Virus record (IMG/VR): IMGVR_UViG_3300032213_001885
Span: 1 to 36,975 of that record
Strand: one strand, 5' to 3'
Length of the DNA: 36,975 nucleotides
Origin: a virus
This document shows positions 3,082-12,848 of the stretch, in pieces; the stretch's first letter is position 1; each line of letters begins with the position of its first letter. The notes beneath the pieces were generated by a model. The model searched no databases. It saw only the letters and a list, made by a program, of their open reading frames with translations, and was not told the DNA's origin. The translations under genes and the position numbers were made by a program.

Positions 3082-4877
3082 ATTATTTCCATATTCTCTA
3101 GCGATGCAGATAAAGATTCGGGTATCCTGGGTGCTCGAATCATATTTTGAACATATTCTTTTTCTTTTGTTATTCCAAAATCATTATCATAGCTCATAGA
3201 TTCATAATTATGTATTTTAATTTCCTCATCACGCTTTATTCTAGTTCTACTAATTGAATTATATATAGCACCGCATACTGCATCTGATAAATCTTTTGAA
3301 CCTTTTCTTGGGTGGTCTACCTTATCTCTATTAATTTTAAGCTGAAGTAACTCATCAATTAAAAGCGGTATATGTGGTCCAGATACCCTCTCTTCTAATA
3401 CTACCATAGCCATATCATCATAGTGTTTTTTTCCAACAGACAGAATTTCTGTATTAATTCCATATGCTTTTAGCTGTTGCATCATGTCGTGAGAATTCCA
3501 CCTATCAAATGTGCACACTTTAATATTAAATCCTAATGTTCTCAGCAATAATATATAGTCTTTTACTTCAGTAAAATCTACAGATTTAGATGGGGTCGGA
3601 GTCCAAAATCTGACTGCGTCAATCTCTACAATTGGTGCTGGTTGGGAGTAAGTATCTGTTACTTTAATATCTACCCATTTATTTACATGTGCCATAGCAA
3701 CTGCGCAATGGTCATGCTTTTGCGCTAAGTCTACGTGCAAAAAATACTCTTTTTCTTCTTCTGGCTTAAACCAATTTTCTAATCTTCCAAACTGGTCTAC
3801 GGCTAAATTCATTTTATTAAATGCTTTTTCAATTTTTTCTCTTGACTTAAAGAATGCATCTACCGCTTCTGTTGGCATACAGGCAAATCTACCTAATGCA
3901 TCCGCTGGATTTTTATGAAACGCAACCGTAAAATCTGTTATATTCTTAGTAGGATTGACCTCCCATGTAGGTCTTTTCAATGCAAATACTTTTGGATACA
4001 CATAAGATAATATGTGATCTTCTTCCCAAGACACTTCAAACTCATTTCCCTCGGTATTATCTGGAAGATCTTGATTTAATTTTAATAACTGAGTTCTTAA
4101 TATTACTTCTTTATCTGCAATTACAGACTCATAGAATTTTTGGATTGGGTCATTTTTAAATCTAGGGAAAGACAGTAATATTACTTTACCAAAGTCTGGA
4201 AAACGAGAATCGACTGATGCTCTATACATATCATATATAGCATCTGCAGTTTTTGCTTGATCATGTCCAGAGGTATTTTCTGTAGCAAATCCAGATATTT
4301 CATCTAGGATTACAGCAATTACGTTATATCCCTCCCATGCCTCTCTTTCGGAGTGGCCAGAGTGTACTGTTACTGATTTATCAAATTTAATCTCAGAAGC
4401 TTTATCTGTATACTTACCAGCAAACCATGGAGAGTTTTCAATTCTCATTTTAAATCCTTTAAAAAATACATTGTTTGCCTGCTGAGCGTTGATAGCAATA
4501 TTTAAAATATCAATAGCATCTCTGGGTGGTTTACCATAGTATGCCGCTGGATCTCTTAAACAAAGAAGCAGATATACCATATACGCAACTGCAATAGTAG
4601 AACAATAATCTTTTCCAGAACCTTTACCGAGCTGGGCTATAACTTCTACACAGGTTTGCTTAAATATTTTTTTGCCTTGTTCTTCACCGTATAAGCTAAT
4701 AAGTGTTGATTCTTTATATATCTGTGAGCTTTTTTCAATTAGTAAGGATTGATACTCAGATAATGGCGGTAGTCCCAGGTATTGTGCATTAGTGACAAAT
4801 GTTTTTAAATCTACTGGCCTTTCTTCAAATTCATCGCCGTCTAATATTTCTATAAAGTCTGAAAAATCAAGAGACAT
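3078..4877 (-). CDS. terL: Terminase large subunit (TerL)
   Basis: This 599-aa packaging motor and nuclease pumps DNA into the prohead and cuts it. The ATPase has a Walker A-like GKGSGKD near residues 84-90 (ending in Asp rather than Ser/Thr) and a Walker B VILDE at 189-193. The RNase H-fold nuclease shows its acidic residues at D383 (HVDLAQ), D458 (CTFDRW) and D532 (KDLSDAV). I chose the ATG at 4877 because it follows AAGGA and gives an 11-base overlap with the upstream gene; an earlier frame extension to 4943 would lie wholly inside that gene. An oxygenase gene sits between it and terS, which is unusual. No portal gene follows within the window. Confidence 0.93.
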   Translation of the reverse strand: MSLDFSDFIEILDGDEFEERPVDLKTFVTNAQYLGLPPLSEYQSLLIEKSSQIYKESTLISLYGEEQGKKIFKQTCVEVIAQLGKGSGKDYCSTIAVAYMVYLLLCLRDPAAYYGKPPRDAIDILNIAINAQQANNVFFKGFKMRIENSPWFAGKYTDKASEIKFDKSVTVHSGHSEREAWEGYNVIAVILDEISGFATENTSGHDQAKTADAIYDMYRASVDSRFPDFGKVILLSFPRFKNDPIQKFYESVIADKEVILRTQLLKLNQDLPDNTEGNEFEVSWEEDHILSYVYPKVFALKRPTWEVNPTKNITDFTVAFHKNPADALGRFACMPTEAVDAFFKSREKIEKAFNKMNLAVDQFGRLENWFKPEEEKEYFLHVDLAQKHDHCAVAMAHVNKWVDIKVTDTYSQPAPIVEIDAVRFWTPTPSKSVDFTEVKDYILLLRTLGFNIKVCTFDRWNSHDMMQQLKAYGINTEILSVGKKHYDDMAMVVLEERVSGPHIPLLIDELLQLKINRDKVDHPRKGSKDLSDAVCGAIYNSISRTRIKRDEEIKIHNYESMSYDNDFGITKEKEYVQNMIRAPRIPESLSASLENMEII

Positions 4878-5451
4878 AGTTGAATTCCTTTGGCACTTTA
4901 ATATAATTAAAGAAATGATTTGAGTGGGAATATCTAAATTCACTTAGTACTTCATTTACCTGATGCATACAATGTTTTTCTGAACTATGTATTACAAGAT
5001 CTCCTCTTTTTGGTTTATATGATATACCCTGAGCTGCGTAATAAAGATCTCCACCTTCAAAATCATTAAAGTATAATATTAATGCGCTTATAATGTTTTC
5101 AACTAATTTAAAATCTTCTCCGTCTTTTAATCTAGCACTGGCCTCTCTCTGAGGTAAAAAATCATTACTATCTGAGTGCCTTTTACCAACTGCACCCTTT
5201 CTCATTCTCACTACACCTTTATCCGATCCTAAATACACTTCTTTGTCAAGTATGGATTTTATCCTGTCATGTATTGAGGTAACTTCTTCAATTTGCTCCA
5301 GAGATCTTTCTTGCCCAGCAATGCTGATCCACTTGTCATCTTCAATATTCTCTACAATTTTGCACATCGCATTACATTCATCATCAGACATAAAATTATT
5401 ATATACGTATATGTCTTCACCAAGTTTAACAAATCTTTCTGTATTAAACAT
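4867..5451 (-). CDS. 2-oxoglutarate/Fe(II) oxygenase between the terminase genes
   Basis: This 194-aa prolyl-4-hydroxylase-like oxygenase has a double-stranded beta-helix. The iron ligands are H92 and D94 (KRHSDS) and H163 (MHQV), with the 2OG-binding Arg at R173 (EFRYS). The typical FEGGDLYY and PKRGDLVIH strands lie between. Such enzymes hydroxylate protein residues or nucleobases using O2 and 2-oxoglutarate; the substrate here is unknown. It overlaps terS by 8 bases and terL by 11, so all three are translationally coupled. That invites the idea that it acts on a packaging or capsid protein, which is inference only. It is much shorter than the other three oxygenases in the window. Confidence 0.85.
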   Translation of the reverse strand: MFNTERFVKLGEDIYVYNNFMSDDECNAMCKIVENIEDDKWISIAGQERSLEQIEEVTSIHDRIKSILDKEVYLGSDKGVVRMRKGAVGKRHSDSNDFLPQREASARLKDGEDFKLVENIISALILYFNDFEGGDLYYAAQGISYKPKRGDLVIHSSEKHCMHQVNEVLSEFRYSHSNHFFNYIKVPKEFNYVS

Positions 5452-7814: not shown

Positions 7815-8153
7815 TTATGAGTTATACCTAACTACATACTTAAGTGCGTCTACAAGCTTGTCTATAGATTCTTTTACTGAATAGTAGATATTCTTTTTAT
7901 TATTGTTTACTGTTCCAGCTTTATCTTTAGCAATTGTAGAATACACAGAAGCCAGCACAGCAAACTTAGTAGACATTGCTTGAAGCTCCATAATTAAATG
8001 TGGGGCTTTTGCGGACGGAACATCTGGATTCATTAAAAGCTTTACCACAATAGCCAGTGCTTTGTCTAGGTGTTCATCTTTCATAAATTCATGAAGGTCA
8101 TTGAACTCCGTAATATCACTAATTAGCTCTAAGGTATTTTTATCATTTGTCAT
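7815..8153 (-). CDS. Helical protein of unknown function
   Basis: 112 aa, predicted nearly all helical, no Cys, acidic at the N-terminus (TLELISDITEFNDLHEFM) and more basic at the C-terminus. I do not recognise the family. The ATG at 8153 has AAGGA seven bases upstream and overlaps the oxygenase gene upstream by four bases; its stop abuts the Cas4-like gene. That tight coupling suggests it may be a partner of the exonuclease or of the oxygenase. No catalytic motif is seen. Confidence 0.7.
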   Translation of the reverse strand: MTNDKNTLELISDITEFNDLHEFMKDEHLDKALAIVVKLLMNPDVPSAKAPHLIMELQAMSTKFAVLASVYSTIAKDKAGTVNNNKKNIYYSVKESIDKLVDALKYVVRYNS

Positions 8154-8932
8154 TTTAAATCCTTTCCATTGATATAATTGACTTGTATTTTTTGGTCAAG
8201 ATATAAGTTATATTCATTTCTATCTACGTAATCTTCAAATTTTACTTGATTATTACCTAGCAGAGAATTTTCTATATTAGAATCAAAAGATGATCTTATT
8301 GCGTACCTATCTACACCTTCTGGCATAACGGGATTGTGATAAAAGGGATAAAAAGATGGAAATGTAATTACGTCTCCAGCTTCTGGCTTATAGTATAAAA
8401 ATCCATGCTCTTTGTCATAAAATTTTATTTCTCCATGACCGTACTCATCGTTTATATAAATCATTGTTGTAATAATATGATTTCTATCAAATTGATTTTT
8501 AGGGGAAGGTATTACATCTAAATGAAATTCGGGGTGTCTTACTATAGAACGAGACGGATTGTGAAAGGTTTTTATAATGGAGAAATCAGCATACCAATGC
8601 TCTTCTGCATTCTGATATTTATCTTTAAGATCTAATGGCCATATTTTTGAATTATAGTATTGGCTGACGTAATCATCTAACACATCTTTTCTGATTTTAA
8701 TTAATTCAGAAATAAAGTTACCGCCATTTTTATTTTCAATATCTTTATCTAGGCTGGTCACCATGTGTGTGTTCTGGGCCCAACCAGCACCTTCTCTGCG
8801 TTTAAAATCGTAAACTATATCCGAATCCTTATTTAATGTTTGAAAAAATTCATAGGTGCTTTGTATATTGCTAAATCTGTTTTTATAAACAACTATATAG
8901 GGAAGTATTTCTTTTTGAGTTAAATTTGTCAT
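8150..8932 (-). CDS. 2-oxoglutarate/Fe(II) oxygenase (paralogue A)
   Basis: 260 aa. Iron ligands are H137 and D139 (FHLDV) and H199 (FYHNP), with an Arg at R209 or R213 for 2-oxoglutarate. The strand IYINDEYGHGEIKFYD and the segment GDVITFPS are the beta-helix hallmarks. It is clearly related to the 273-aa oxygenase at 10847-11668 (LNDEYDGGEICAYD; FYHAV...EGADRY), so the two are paralogues split by three other genes. The substrate is unknown. A GGAGG site lies 12 bases before the ATG, inside the preceding gene. The N-terminal 100 residues share a YKNxF motif with the paralogue and may bind the substrate. Confidence 0.85.
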   Translation of the reverse strand: MTNLTQKEILPYIVVYKNRFSNIQSTYEFFQTLNKDSDIVYDFKRREGAGWAQNTHMVTSLDKDIENKNGGNFISELIKIRKDVLDDYVSQYYNSKIWPLDLKDKYQNAEEHWYADFSIIKTFHNPSRSIVRHPEFHLDVIPSPKNQFDRNHIITTMIYINDEYGHGEIKFYDKEHGFLYYKPEAGDVITFPSFYPFYHNPVMPEGVDRYAIRSSFDSNIENSLLGNNQVKFEDYVDRNEYNLYLDQKIQVNYINGKDLK

Positions 8933-9727
8933 TTAAAAAATTAACCTCCATACCCCATCGCATTTTATTCCAAATATCTGCATAGTAATTCTTCTATCTG
9001 TGTTAAGTGTATCGATTGAATATCCGACAGCATGATATACTTCTCCGTGCTGCCAGAAAATATATCCTGGTATATAGTCTATTACTTCTGGTATAGGATT
9101 TTTTATATACTTACTAAATTTATGTGCATTTTTTTCATTTTTATTAAAATCGAATAATTTAGATCTATTGGCGTATTCACTATTTGAGTACAGTCCAATG
9201 TCTGGCTGATCCCAAATTAAAATACCTGATCCATTTTTTGGTAGCTCAAGAGCCAATGTCATTCCAAATGAATCTGTGGCTCCTCCGTACTGATTCCATT
9301 TATAGTCTAACATATTGAATAAACCATCACGATGAATTTCTGTTTGTCCTTCAAAATCTCCGTATTCAGAACGTGTTGGAGTTTCATTTTTTTTCAGACC
9401 ACCGTATATATAAAATCCTGGAATTGGTACATCATCAACAATTTCGCATGGACCAAACAATTCGTTTACTTTAGAAATAATTATTTCATATAAATATTTA
9501 AAGTTGTCTTGTAAAATTTTATTATTTTTATTGAAAAAAGATATTTGCTCATTAGTCATAATATCATTTGGTAGTCTATCAATATGCGAAACTGCTCCTA
9601 AAGTGTGGTAACCATAGTCATCACTACCTCTGGGTATCCAGCTGTCAGACAATGACTCTATAATCTCCAAAGTCCTGTCAACTTCCGCTGGACTTAAAAG
9701 ATTGATATAGCCATAATTATTTGACAT
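8933..9727 (-). CDS. 2-oxoglutarate/Fe(II) oxygenase, divergent
   Basis: 264 aa. It has the HxD at H132-D134 (EIHRDG), a distal H232 (VYHAVG) and Arg at R245/R246 (TDRRITMQ), with PGYIFWQHG in the second half of the barrel. It differs in sequence from the other three oxygenases here, so it is probably an independent acquisition or an old duplicate. The distance between HxD and the distal His (about 100 residues) is longer than usual, with an inserted Asn/Lys-rich loop at about 180-210. It starts right after the 46-aa basic gene and abuts paralogue A, implying co-expression. The substrate is unknown. Confidence 0.75.
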   Translation of the reverse strand: MSNNYGYINLLSPAEVDRTLEIIESLSDSWIPRGSDDYGYHTLGAVSHIDRLPNDIMTNEQISFFNKNNKILQDNFKYLYEIIISKVNELFGPCEIVDDVPIPGFYIYGGLKKNETPTRSEYGDFEGQTEIHRDGLFNMLDYKWNQYGGATDSFGMTLALELPKNGSGILIWDQPDIGLYSNSEYANRSKLFDFNKNEKNAHKFSKYIKNPIPEVIDYIPGYIFWQHGEVYHAVGYSIDTLNTDRRITMQIFGIKCDGVWRLIF

Positions 9728-9868
9728 TTATACCTGCACACCCTTGGCTTTCTTTTTTTTACCATAGGCACCTAGATCAGCTTTTATTGTTCCATCTTTT
9801 CTGACCCTAACAATTCTTCCGTTTTTAATAACAGTAGGATTAAAAGGTATTTTATTATTCGATCCCAT
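9728..9868 (-). CDS. 46-aa basic protein
   Basis: MGSNNKIPFN...VQV, 46 aa. It has a charged beta-like middle (GRIVRVRKDGTIKADL) and a KKKKAK run near the C-terminus. It overlaps the DUF6065-like gene by 14 bases, and its stop is adjacent to the next ATG, so it fills the gap between two genes exactly and is very likely real. I do not recognise it. A small basic nucleic-acid-binding protein, or a peptide acted on by the oxygenases beside it, are both possible. Confidence 0.6.
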   Translation of the reverse strand: MGSNNKIPFNPTVIKNGRIVRVRKDGTIKADLGAYGKKKKAKGVQV

Positions 9869-10556
9869 CTTGACCCCTTACATATAGATTAAATTTGTCA
9901 ACTTGGTGCTGACCAATTTTATTTCCAAAAGCATCAGTACCAGCCTTATAAAACTTGGGCCTGATTCCTTCGGAATTTAATTTTTTTATTTCATTTACGT
10001 AATCTGGCTTGGCGTGATAATCATCTCCTACCAACGATTTGTCTTTAATATTAATAACAGAGTTATTGATATCAGATACATTTATTGGTAATATACAAGC
10101 AATGTCTGTTCCAGCGGTAATGGTGTACACATTGGTGTCATATAACTTTAAAACTATTGGAAACGGTGCTCTAAAAAAAGAAGATGTTAGTAGGGTTGTA
10201 ACAACATCATAGTCTTTTCTTTTGTCTGATAGATTATTAGGAACTTCCATTGTTAACAATGAAACATCTATGTCGGTTTCAAATATGAGATTGGTATTAA
10301 AACTTACAGTGCCCTCTCCCCTACCTTCCCAAACCATACCTGTTTCAGTTATTTCTTTTGCTGGCTCATGGATCTTTCCGCTCCAGGAAAAACTTATATC
10401 TTCATCGTGATAGATGCCATACCCGAAAGAATTAGCAGACACGATTGGATAGCAATTATATGTTTCGGAATTCATCCAACCACGTTGAGGCCTAATCTGC
10501 CTAATTTTAAAAGATTTTTGGTTAGGCATCTGCTTTCTGGCTATAATGTTATACAT
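9855..10556 (-). CDS. DUF6065-like protein
   Basis: 233 aa. Near the N-terminus, RPQRGWM...CYPIVSANSFGYGI...ISFSWSG follows the pattern I associate with DUF6065 proteins (RxWM, then a CLPLxxANxxGW-type segment and a Trp-Gly strand). The middle has GEGTVSFNTNLIF and further beta strands, so the fold is mostly beta. No function is established for the family that I can cite. It sits in the oxygenase cluster, overlapping the nuclease-like gene by 8 bases and the 46-aa gene by 14. GGGAAG seven bases before the ATG supports this start. The family call is from memory of the pattern. Confidence 0.65.
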   Translation of the reverse strand: MYNIIARKQMPNQKSFKIRQIRPQRGWMNSETYNCYPIVSANSFGYGIYHDEDISFSWSGKIHEPAKEITETGMVWEGRGEGTVSFNTNLIFETDIDVSLLTMEVPNNLSDKRKDYDVVTTLLTSSFFRAPFPIVLKLYDTNVYTITAGTDIACILPINVSDINNSVINIKDKSLVGDDYHAKPDYVNEIKKLNSEGIRPKFYKAGTDAFGNKIGQHQVDKFNLYVRGQDGIE

Positions 10557-10854
10557 TTTTTTCTTCCCAAAAAGTAATTAATTCTTCAAGAATTGTCCAT
10601 TCAATAATTCCAAGCCTGACTTTAGATTCATTTCCTATAATTATTTTTAATGCTGGGTGCATGTCTCTGTTTACCTTAAAGGTGTCTGTACAAATTTTTG
10701 CCCAATTATCTTTGTTAAGTGTAAATGAAGTACCAGCTTCTTTGTAATCAACAAGAAACTTTTTCCATTGAGCATCACCTTTTTGATAATCGCCTCTACC
10801 AGAATTCTTCTGGGCCTTAGCCCCATCTCTTTTTACTTCGGATCTTTCAGACAT
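10549..10854 (-). CDS. Small PD-(D/E)XK-like nuclease, possible junction resolvase
   Basis: 101 aa from MSERSEVKRDG. The segment AKAQKNSGRGDYQKGD followed by FLVDYKEA looks like the PD-(D/E)XK core of small Hjc/Vsr-like endonucleases, with KGD and DYK as candidate active-site elements. Size suits a dimeric resolvase or nicking enzyme. An upstream ATG at 10866 with AGAGG nine bases before it is an equally possible start. The ATG chosen here gives the 8-base overlap seen at several other junctions in this genome. It is encoded directly after an oxygenase gene. Moderate certainty on the fold, low on the role. Confidence 0.55.
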   Translation of the reverse strand: MSERSEVKRDGAKAQKNSGRGDYQKGDAQWKKFLVDYKEAGTSFTLNKDNWAKICTDTFKVNRDMHPALKIIIGNESKVRLGIIEWTILEELITFWEEKNV

Positions 10855-11668
10855 AATCAATCTCATTTACATTTACCTCTTGAGAAGATATTTTAATTGT
10901 CTGCAAATCCTTTTTGATATATTCTGATTCAACATTTTCAATTTCGGTAATTGGGTTATCTCCTTGAAGAGAATAATTTGCAACCCAATGCTCGTCTGGA
11001 TCACGCTTGTAGTCTACAAAAATTCTTAGGAAATATCTGTCTGCGCCTTCAAAACATTTTACCGCATGATAAAATGGCTCAGTCGATGGCATGACTACTG
11101 CATCACCAATTCCTGGCTTGTATCGGTAGCTTTTGTTTGAAATAGAATCATATGCACAAATTTCTCCACCATCGTATTCATCATTTAAATAAAAGTTGAC
11201 AGTTATTACATGTCTGCGAGTTTTAAAATCACTAATCATTGGAAACTCATCCACATGGTACTGCATTAACAATTCTTGTTTTATTTTGCTAACACTCTCT
11301 AGGTCATACTTAAAGTAATCAATTTCATATTCTGGTTTTTGTTCTTTTACTTTAGACCAGTCTTTTATAAATGAAGGCCATATCCCTTTTTCGTCACCAA
11401 ACTGTTCAAAATAATCTTTTTTTATAAATTCAAATGCGTCACAGATTTCAAGTAGATATTCTTGCTCACTATTATTGTATGTATATTTTCTATTAAAATC
11501 AGAAAATCTTCTTTGCCCTTGACCATACCAATCTTTCCAATCAAGGAAGCATGACTCTTTAGTATATGTTTTGAGAGACTCCATAAGAGCATTGCTATTT
11601 TTGAATAAATTTTTGTAAATAACAATTTGTGGAGCAACAACAATTTTTTCTATTTTATTATAATCCAT
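10847..11668 (-). CDS. 2-oxoglutarate/Fe(II) oxygenase (paralogue B)
   Basis: 273 aa. Ligands are H138 and D140 (QYHVDEF) and H201 (FYHAV), with Arg at R211 or R215. It shares NDEY(D/G)xGEI, the GD(A/V)-V-PS-PFYH block and the N-terminal I(V/I)YKNxF motif with the oxygenase at 8150-8932, showing duplication within the cluster. There is an extra C-terminal tail of about 50 residues (DEHWVANYSLQGD...). It starts immediately after the stop of a small zinc-protein gene. The substrate is unknown; targets proposed for phage enzymes of this fold include protein side chains and modified bases. Confidence 0.85.
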   Translation of the reverse strand: MDYNKIEKIVVAPQIVIYKNLFKNSNALMESLKTYTKESCFLDWKDWYGQGQRRFSDFNRKYTYNNSEQEYLLEICDAFEFIKKDYFEQFGDEKGIWPSFIKDWSKVKEQKPEYEIDYFKYDLESVSKIKQELLMQYHVDEFPMISDFKTRRHVITVNFYLNDEYDGGEICAYDSISNKSYRYKPGIGDAVVMPSTEPFYHAVKCFEGADRYFLRIFVDYKRDPDEHWVANYSLQGDNPITEIENVESEYIKKDLQTIKISSQEVNVNEIDYV

Positions 11669-11857
11669 TTATCCCATCCTATGAATAGTCTCATGACCTT
11701 GAGAACAAGTCCACTTCATTATTAAATTTTTAGGATCCCACAACCCACCATCTACATTTAGATCACATTCAGAGCACGGCTTCACCCCTGGAAGAGGTTC
11801 GAATGTAGAATCGGAATCCTCTTCTTTTTCTTTTAAAAATTCATTAAGATTTGGCAT
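11669..11857 (-). CDS. Small zinc-binding protein downstream of recA
   Basis: 62 aa (MPNLNEFLKEKEEDS...). The C-terminal half has CSECD and, about 20 residues on, CSQGHETIH, a CxxC plus C...H...H arrangement fit for one zinc. The N-terminus is acidic and probably helical. I took the ATG at 11857, which has GAGG six bases before it; a TTG four codons upstream is less likely. It overlaps the recA stop by 14 bases and is therefore coupled to it. No function is known. Confidence 0.75.
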   Translation of the reverse strand: MPNLNEFLKEKEEDSDSTFEPLPGVKPCSECDLNVDGGLWDPKNLIMKWTCSQGHETIHRMG

Positions 11858-12848
11858 CAATGTCCTCAATTAATTTGTCAACAACTTTTGGATTTTCTCG
11901 TAGATACGTTACTGCCTTTGCACGACCTTGAAACCTTTCACCGTTAACGGTATACCATGCTCCACCTTTTTCTACGGATCCTACCATTTCTGCAACATCA
12001 AGAGTTTCTCCAACTAGGTCTACTCCTATATTTTCTCCTTGATAATAGAAGTCATACTGTCCTGATAGATTAGGGGGGCCGAGCTTGTTGTAATCAATAA
12101 TCCAATTGACTGGTCTGCCAACTCTTTGTTCAATGATTTTATCGCCAACCTTAATGCCAGCTTTGATAGCATTAGCCTCAGCCTCGGAAGACCATAGCTT
12201 AATAACGGTGGAAGAGAAAAATTTGACTGCCATTCCTCCTGTCGGAATGTGGGAGGCATGCATAGATCCAAACTGATTTCTTTGTTGTGAGATGAGTACC
12301 AATAGTGTATTTTTGTTTGCATAGTTTAACATTTTGACTGCATGAGTCATATCCTTTGCTTCTGCTCCGATTTGCTTAGTGTCTTGCAAATCTTTCATTT
12401 CATTTCCATCTTTTTCAAAATAAATAGCAGGCAATAAGGCAGATATTGAATCTACAACAATTATGTCTACTCCAGCGTCCATCAATTTTGTTGCTACATC
12501 TACCATATCATTAACTGTTTTTGCTGGTGAATAAATAAGCGCAGATGAATCTACTCCAAGTGTCTCGGCCCACGTCTGATCAAAAGATGCTTCTGCATCA
12601 ATCCACGCACAAGTCTTTCCTTCTTTTTGTGCCATGGCAATCATCTGTAAACAAAATGAAGATTTTCCAGCAGACTTATTACCCCATACGAGGGCTTGTC
12701 TTCCAAAACCAAGACCACCTTTTAACGCCATGTTTAAACCAATACTTGGCGTTTTTTGTTTTTCAACTTTAATGTCTTGTGCTGATTGAACTCTTGCTCT
12801 TGTTTTTGGATCTAATTTTGCTAGTATATCATCTAGTTCGATAGTCAT
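11844..12848 (-). CDS. recA: RecA-family recombinase
   Basis: This 334-aa strand-exchange ATPase forms filaments on single-stranded DNA. Walker A is GNKSAGKS at 56-63 (bacterial RecA usually GPESSGKT) and Walker B IIVVDS near 129-134. SQQRNQFGSMHASHIPTGG in the middle corresponds to the L1/L2 DNA-binding loops. The C-terminus is short and acidic. It works with the nearby exonuclease, resolvase and SSB-like genes. The ATG at 12848 follows AAGGA. A promoter with an extended -10 lies just upstream, overlapping the mazG stop, so recA can be expressed separately. The sequence is diverged enough to be phage-type rather than a recent host copy. Confidence 0.93.
   Translation of the reverse strand: MTIELDDILAKLDPKTRARVQSAQDIKVEKQKTPSIGLNMALKGGLGFGRQALVWGNKSAGKSSFCLQMIAMAQKEGKTCAWIDAEASFDQTWAETLGVDSSALIYSPAKTVNDMVDVATKLMDAGVDIIVVDSISALLPAIYFEKDGNEMKDLQDTKQIGAEAKDMTHAVKMLNYANKNTLLVLISQQRNQFGSMHASHIPTGGMAVKFFSSTVIKLWSSEAEANAIKAGIKVGDKIIEQRVGRPVNWIIDYNKLGPPNLSGQYDFYYQGENIGVDLVGETLDVAEMVGSVEKGGAWYTVNGERFQGRAKAVTYLRENPKVVDKLIEDIDAKS

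Follow-up and report, generated by a model that had tools for sequence, protein, structure and literature searches.

A variable cargo slot in the replication-recombination operon of a freshwater phage carries a 2-oxoglutarate oxygenase paired with a DUF6065 protein

Few unexplained genes recur as often in aquatic phages as those for oxygenases that depend on iron and 2-oxoglutarate (2OG-Fe(II) oxygenases). The cyanophage S-SCSM1 carries 24 copies, which have been treated as auxiliary genes (PMC9602691), and phages of the HTVC023P type, which are pelagiphages, also encode such enzymes as auxiliary genes, with ferrochelatase noted as a co-located partner (PMC9599517). The papers found describe no tested substrate for these phage enzymes. 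The locus described here lies in IMG/VR virus record IMGVR_UViG_3300032213_001885, a contig of 36,975 bases from a freshwater phage that was analysed over its whole length (the window). Six minus-strand open reading frames (ORFs) overlap or abut between positions 8150 and 11668, encoding three oxygenases (OxyA, OxyB and OxyC), a small nuclease, a DUF6065 protein and a basic peptide of 46 amino acids (aa). Like the phages above, this virus and its relatives are aquatic and carry many PF13640-type oxygenases, but unlike in those phages the constant partner of the oxygenases is DUF6065. Among open-licence papers, no literature mentioning DUF6065 was found, and no description of the OxyA-DUF6065 pairing, of its arrays among tail genes or of a second copy of the pair within a replication operon. 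The enzymes are familiar, and DUF6065 is their previously unrecognised constant partner. A constant partner with a recognisable predicted fold, together with a fixed location among tail genes, provides a first concrete handle on these oxygenases, and DUF6065, an unannotated family, is supplied with a predicted fold. The region is read here as a variable cargo slot in a conserved replication-recombination operon, in which the meaningful unit is an OxyA-DUF6065 module proposed to modify proteins; a probability of roughly 45% is given to this reading.

The cargo occupies two slots. The first lies between the backbone gene p66 and the gene for the nuclease, a Holliday-junction resolvase (HJR), and contains OxyA, while the second lies between HJR and the backbone gene p112 and contains DUF6065, the peptide, OxyC and OxyB. 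The nearest relative of the window, L004, has a backbone that is about 95-100% identical and the gene order OxyA-HJR-DUF6065-peptide-OxyC, without OxyB. Among the more than 100 relatives compared, other cargo of the slots includes a single-strand DNA-binding protein (SSB), a DUF1427/XapX-like protein, a 34-aa membrane peptide and other oxygenases, and some slots are empty. For an estimate of co-occurrence, loci were sampled by p112 only, a marker that is independent of the oxygenases. This gave 80 loci, of which the 68 with RecA, HJR and p112 all visible were scored, the presence of HJR being a requirement for scoring. OxyA in the first slot and DUF6065 in the second were found together in 15 loci, one without the other in none, and neither in 53. 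Once identical HJRs had been dropped, the pair was complete in 10 loci and absent from 40, with either gene alone in 0 and 0 (Fisher 1e-10, without correction for phylogeny). The other two oxygenases are optional cargo: OxyB is present in L033, L041 and L070, and OxyC occurs with or without the OxyA-DUF6065 pair in relatives and is only 37% identical to its counterpart in L004, though the two phages are otherwise near-identical. The core of the slot is the OxyA and DUF6065 pair, and the whole cluster is not one system. The original prediction had taken the overlapped run as a single unit. All six of its ORFs, with their strand, coordinates and short overlaps, are confirmed, but the run extends into its neighbours on both sides (p66 and RecA on one, and p112, a Cas4-like exonuclease and RuvC on the other), so that tight packing does not delimit a cluster, and the genes do not all co-occur. 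The co-occurrence comparison that it had proposed, now carried out, links OxyA with DUF6065 and leaves the nuclease, the peptide, OxyB and OxyC outside the association.

The pairing recurs in other genomic settings. The genome background of L113 is different, and there the genes for OxyA and DUF6065 share 8 bp and neither HJR nor RecA lies close by. DUF6065 is divergent from a different 2OG oxygenase in L140 and L154, and the gene order in L181-L183 is HJR-DUF6065-OxyA. The gene content of 13 whole or near-whole phage contigs was compared in search of genes that track the slot pair, but the differences exposed arrays in the tail region rather than any slot-linked gene. A second locus, comprising about five tandem 2OG oxygenases and another DUF6065, is present in 11 of the 13 contigs, where it lies between tail-fibre-like genes and upstream of a portal-like gene. 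These contigs have 19 DUF6065 genes, every one of them within 400 bp of an oxygenase, compared with 167 of the 1745 other genes. A separate sample of tail-type loci, chosen on DUF6065 only, comprised 50 distinct loci, in each of which an oxygenase lies no more than 900 bp away (no more than 50 bp in 49 of them), and those with full flanks (n = 20) have five to seven oxygenases within 4.5 kb. Tandem 2OG oxygenases, five to eight per array, accompany a second DUF6065 at L453:9807-14159, G001:34240-38565, L454:5977-11935 and L456:6047-12755. In G001, genes for an Asp/Asn beta-hydroxylase (PF05118) and a sulfotransferase (PF03567) adjoin the array, while in the nearest relative of the window it is flanked by fn3-like and collagen-like tail genes; the window itself is too short to reveal whether its own phage has a tail array. 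In phylogenetic trees of DUF6065 and of OxyA-type proteins, the slot copies and the tail copies form distinct clades (with moderate support, and with midpoint rooting of the OxyA tree), as is expected if the pair was duplicated or moved together.

OxyA matches PF13640 (2OG-FeII_Oxy_3) at 3.9e-9, above the Pfam curated cut-off, and OxyB matches the same family at 2.2e-5, just below it. The Fe/2OG residues of OxyA (H138, D140, H201 and R215, forming HxD...H...R) are invariant across 32 OxyA/B-type homologues, and its ratio of non-synonymous to synonymous substitution (dN/dS) of 0.08 indicates strong purifying selection. OxyA resembles prolyl-4-hydroxylases (P4H) and PKHD-type hydroxylases in keeping this motif and in the weak matches of its profile to P4H, PKHD and PiuC structures in the PDB, of which the best E-value is only 6e-4. 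A Pfam search gave no match for OxyC. Its AlphaFold2 model has a predicted local distance difference test score (pLDDT) of 90 and in Foldseek matches 2OG enzymes, among them the oxygenase WelO5 (1.8e-9), and the protein is predicted to have the double-stranded beta-helix fold of 2OG oxygenases. Its residues H132, D134, H232 and R246 are invariant across 22 OxyC-type homologues. The modelled fold and this invariant HxD...H...R motif bear out the earlier identification of OxyC as a divergent oxygenase. WelO5, the closest structural match to the model, is a halogenase with a halide-binding HxG motif that accommodates chloride, whereas OxyC has HxD with D134 invariant, and OxyC should therefore hydroxylate rather than halogenate. 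In cyanophage P-HM1 (L001:4288-5762), an OxyC homologue lies directly after the Lys/Arg-rich protein PHM1_169. A basic protein beside OxyC at first looked promising as a substrate, but none is found at other OxyC genes outside the cyanophage group of P-HM1.

The DUF6065 protein matches PF19541 at 3.3e-10, above the Pfam curated cut-off, and is also under strong purifying selection (dN/dS 0.08). Its AlphaFold2 model, made with 28 homologues, has a pLDDT of 79 and a predicted template-modelling score (pTM) of 0.75, with core residues 41-160 mostly at 77-94. When the model was compared with the PDB, all 50 listed matches were trimeric dUTPases (best E 2e-4, probability 1.00), and dUTPases also dominate the named matches in a viral structure library. 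The same procedure applied to OxyC gave 2OG oxygenases and not dUTPases. DUF6065 is thus predicted to have a fold like that of trimeric dUTPases, from which it differs in that 28 DUF6065 members searched with PF00692 (dUTPase) gave no match and that the phage copies are without the acidic residues of motif 3. The best alignment between the DUF6065 and dUTPase profiles spans motif 3 and the region after it. At the motif-3 positions, bacterial DUF6065 proteins read V-E-T-D-W and phage copies I-S-T-S-F, so that Ser stands at the acidic positions of the bacterial members. This replacement suggests, within the limits of a modelled fold and a weak profile alignment, that phage DUF6065 proteins probably do not hydrolyse dUTP. 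The family is common to many alpha- and gammaproteobacteria. No relative was found when DUF6065 was sought directly in isolated phages, or when the alignment of phage DUF6065 proteins was searched against bacterial genomes. One bacterial ORF, in a Lysobacterales assembly (L224:1-1542), is a fusion of DUF6065 with a Cupin_8 (JmjC-like) domain, and lends weak support to a link with oxygenases; its cupin part is without an obvious HxD motif.

Copy number and divergence also vary among the phages. An extra DUF6065 copy is found downstream of RuvC in L021 (7466-8188) and L024 (8391-9113), and three copies surround HJR and OxyA in L066. In the tail arrays, at L373:8274-9023 (minus strand) and in L454-L461, there are further proteins that by eye resemble very divergent DUF6065 (e.g. 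'YKSCPAILDIFTTGYALLTPCDIEFY'), with no Pfam match.

In the mechanism proposed here, the oxygenases would hydroxylate residues of proteins, and DUF6065, probably a trimer like the dUTPases, would be a non-hydrolysing partner that binds either the substrate or the enzyme. The tail-array copy would probably target virion adhesins, while the window copy, located in the replication operon, would act early in infection. A protein substrate is suggested by the location of the larger copy among tail genes, by the Asp/Asn beta-hydroxylase and sulfotransferase neighbours in G001, and by the weak but consistent similarity of OxyA to P4H and PKHD enzymes. Modification of a protein or peptide had been one suggestion of the original prediction, possibly with the basic peptide itself as the target. 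The first part stays the leading inference on account of the paralogous module among tail-fibre genes; the peptide is discounted, as it has close homologues in L276, L338 and L340, where the slot contains no oxygenase (further homologues occur in L335, L339 and L267). In a bolder version, which seems rather doubtful, DUF6065 is a catalytically repurposed dUTPase-fold protein on which phage 2OG oxygenases depend as an obligate partner, the two forming a new kind of machine that hydroxylates phage or host proteins and has been duplicated into early (replication-operon) and late (tail-array) versions.

The main rival is modification of nucleotides or DNA bases, whereby OxyA would oxidise a nucleotide or base and DUF6065, helped by MazG, would bind or remove a particular deoxynucleoside triphosphate. 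The position of the window pair within a replication operon, near RecA, HJR, MazG and DnaE, is in keeping with such a role, as is the predicted fold, which is that of a nucleotide-binding enzyme family. No canonical dUTPase was found in the 28 phage records searched, and DUF6065 could substitute for one. The paralogous module, however, sits among tail genes and not replication genes, the phage DUF6065 proteins have Ser where motif 3 would be acidic, and the weak PDB matches of OxyA are to prolyl and PKHD hydroxylases, not to TET/JBP or AlkB. The thymidylate synthase family PF00303 is found in 0 of 28 related records, many of which are fragments. This agrees with the earlier remark that no thymidylate synthase lies nearby, and it distinguishes the locus from pyrimidine hypermodification systems, with their thymidylate-synthase-type hydroxymethylase, deoxynucleoside monophosphate kinase and DNA-level transferases. 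Modification of nucleotides or DNA is accordingly the less likely of the two explanations, and is regarded as improbable.

Several observations weigh against an OxyA-DUF6065 module that modifies proteins. Synonymous divergence (dS) between the window and L004 is 0.9-1.7 across OxyA-HJR-DUF6065 and 0.15-0.29 in the flanking backbone, a jump which indicates that the three genes were exchanged as one block carrying the resolvase. With block transfer, linkage at the slot alone is no proof of joint function. The dS profile would also suit a recombination-prone slot that gathers unrelated auxiliary genes, in which 2OG oxygenases act on the metabolism of the host or on the level of 2-oxoglutarate and DUF6065 simply travels along in the block. 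The highly variable slot content (SSB, the DUF1427/XapX-like protein, the 34-aa membrane peptide, the basic peptide, OxyC and OxyB) points the same way, as do the many functionally unstudied 2OG oxygenases of aquatic phages (PMC9602691). Block exchange at this slot cannot, however, explain an association that recurs in L113 without HJR and again in the tail arrays, which makes a collection of unrelated auxiliary genes an unlikely account. A further adverse point concerns possible substrates: collagen-like proteins show no association with the slot pair (about 5 of 11 genomes with it and 7 of 14 without), and a Gly-X-Y run was sought in the window and none was found. Collagen-like tail proteins were rejected as the substrate on these two grounds. 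When the DUF6065 profile was aligned with those of dUTPases, the match fell short of significance (E 0.04, probability 1.2%), and the evidence for the fold is therefore the predicted model. Lastly, bacterial DUF6065 genes have no oxygenase neighbour by the profiles used and no widely conserved neighbour, from which it follows that DUF6065 can work in the absence of an oxygenase.

The bacterial proteins also bear on a different explanation of the pairing, in which the adjoining oxygenases hydroxylate DUF6065 itself, as their substrate or as a component of the virion. Constant adjacency would be expected in that case, and the invariant Cys, Pro and Asn residues (e.g. C35, P37, N42 and N107) would be candidate sites. 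Proteins of the dUTPase fold are trimeric, like tail fibres, which counts in its favour. These four residues, along with R25, W27, Y33, G45, W58 and G60, are nevertheless invariant or nearly so in slot, tail and bacterial members alike, the last of these having no oxygenase neighbour, and are therefore explained by fold or function and not as hydroxylation sites. The slot copy, moreover, lies away from virion genes. DUF6065 as a substrate is considered highly improbable, and a partner role in protein modification is preferred for it.

The small nuclease between OxyA and DUF6065 matches PHROG 2002 (phrog_2002, 'Holliday junction resolvase') at 1.8e-19, and its PD-(D/E)XK-like motif is intact, with G30-D31, D40, K42 and E43 unchanged across nine homologues, so the nuclease that had been called from the sequence is real. 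It is 54% and 47% identical to its counterparts in the Streptomyces phages NootNoot (Samistivirus) and Annadreamy (Annadreamyvirus) of the Stanwilliamsviridae, which share the gene order RuvC, 92-aa protein, Cas4-like exonuclease, 112-aa protein, HJ resolvase, 66-aa protein, RecA, MazG and DnaE, except that Annadreamy has a dUTPase where MazG stands. The homologous resolvases differ in their surroundings: the HJR of the window is flanked by cargo, and NootNoot and Annadreamy have no oxygenase at that place. The nuclease belongs, as its HJR, to the housekeeping backbone of a Stanwilliamsviridae-like replication operon and lies outside the module. From this backbone, which resembles that of Streptomyces phages, the probable hosts of the group are freshwater Actinobacteria. 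The idea that it spares DNA marked by the oxygenases is not supported by the sampled slots, all 68 of which contain HJR (as scoring required), 53 of them without OxyA and DUF6065. A pairing of nuclease and modifier is likewise at odds with the oxygenase-free Streptomyces phages and with the HJR-free pair of L113. The 46-aa peptide, too, is the product of a real gene: its counterpart in the nearest relative is 93% identical, and its dN/dS is 0.09. In phages that are without the OxyA-DUF6065 pair, such as L276 (5195-5617), L270 and L271, SSB (PF00436 at 2.3e-17 in L276) is often found in the slot that follows the resolvase.

Table 1. Genes of the cargo slots, their bordering backbone genes and a further oxygenase-like gene in the window.
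Feature	Position	Strand	Remarks
OxyA	10847-11668	-	P4H-like 2OG-Fe(II) oxygenase; member of the linked core pair
Holliday-junction resolvase (HJR), PD-(D/E)XK-like	10549-10866	-	Backbone gene between OxyA and DUF6065; outside the module
DUF6065 protein	9855-10556	-	Member of the linked core pair; predicted dUTPase fold, divergent motif 3
46-aa basic small protein	9728-9868	-	Independent optional gene in the same slot
OxyC	8933-9727	-	WelO5-like 2OG oxygenase by predicted structure; HxD, hence putatively hydroxylase-type; optional cargo
OxyB	8150-8932	-	Distant OxyA paralogue, about 31% identity (alignment); optional cargo
p66, 66-aa backbone gene	11669-11869	-	Upstream edge of the slot; kept beside RecA in relatives
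p112, 112-aa backbone gene	7815-8153	-	Downstream edge of the slot; phrog_9818 (3.8e-45)
Fourth PF13640-like oxygenase gene	4867-5451	-	PF13640 1e-5, just under the cut-off

The coordinates of these genes are given in Table 1. The fourth oxygenase-like gene overlaps the start of a terminase-like gene, is 86% identical in L004 and is found in most relatives. Elsewhere on the minus strand of the window, genes at 761-1177, 1265-1672 and 1806-2846 encode an HSP20 chaperone, a staphylococcal-nuclease-like protein and an IMP dehydrogenase/GMP reductase, respectively. The backbone gene p112 is among the most conserved genes seen, with about 96% identity across distant relatives that are otherwise diverged.

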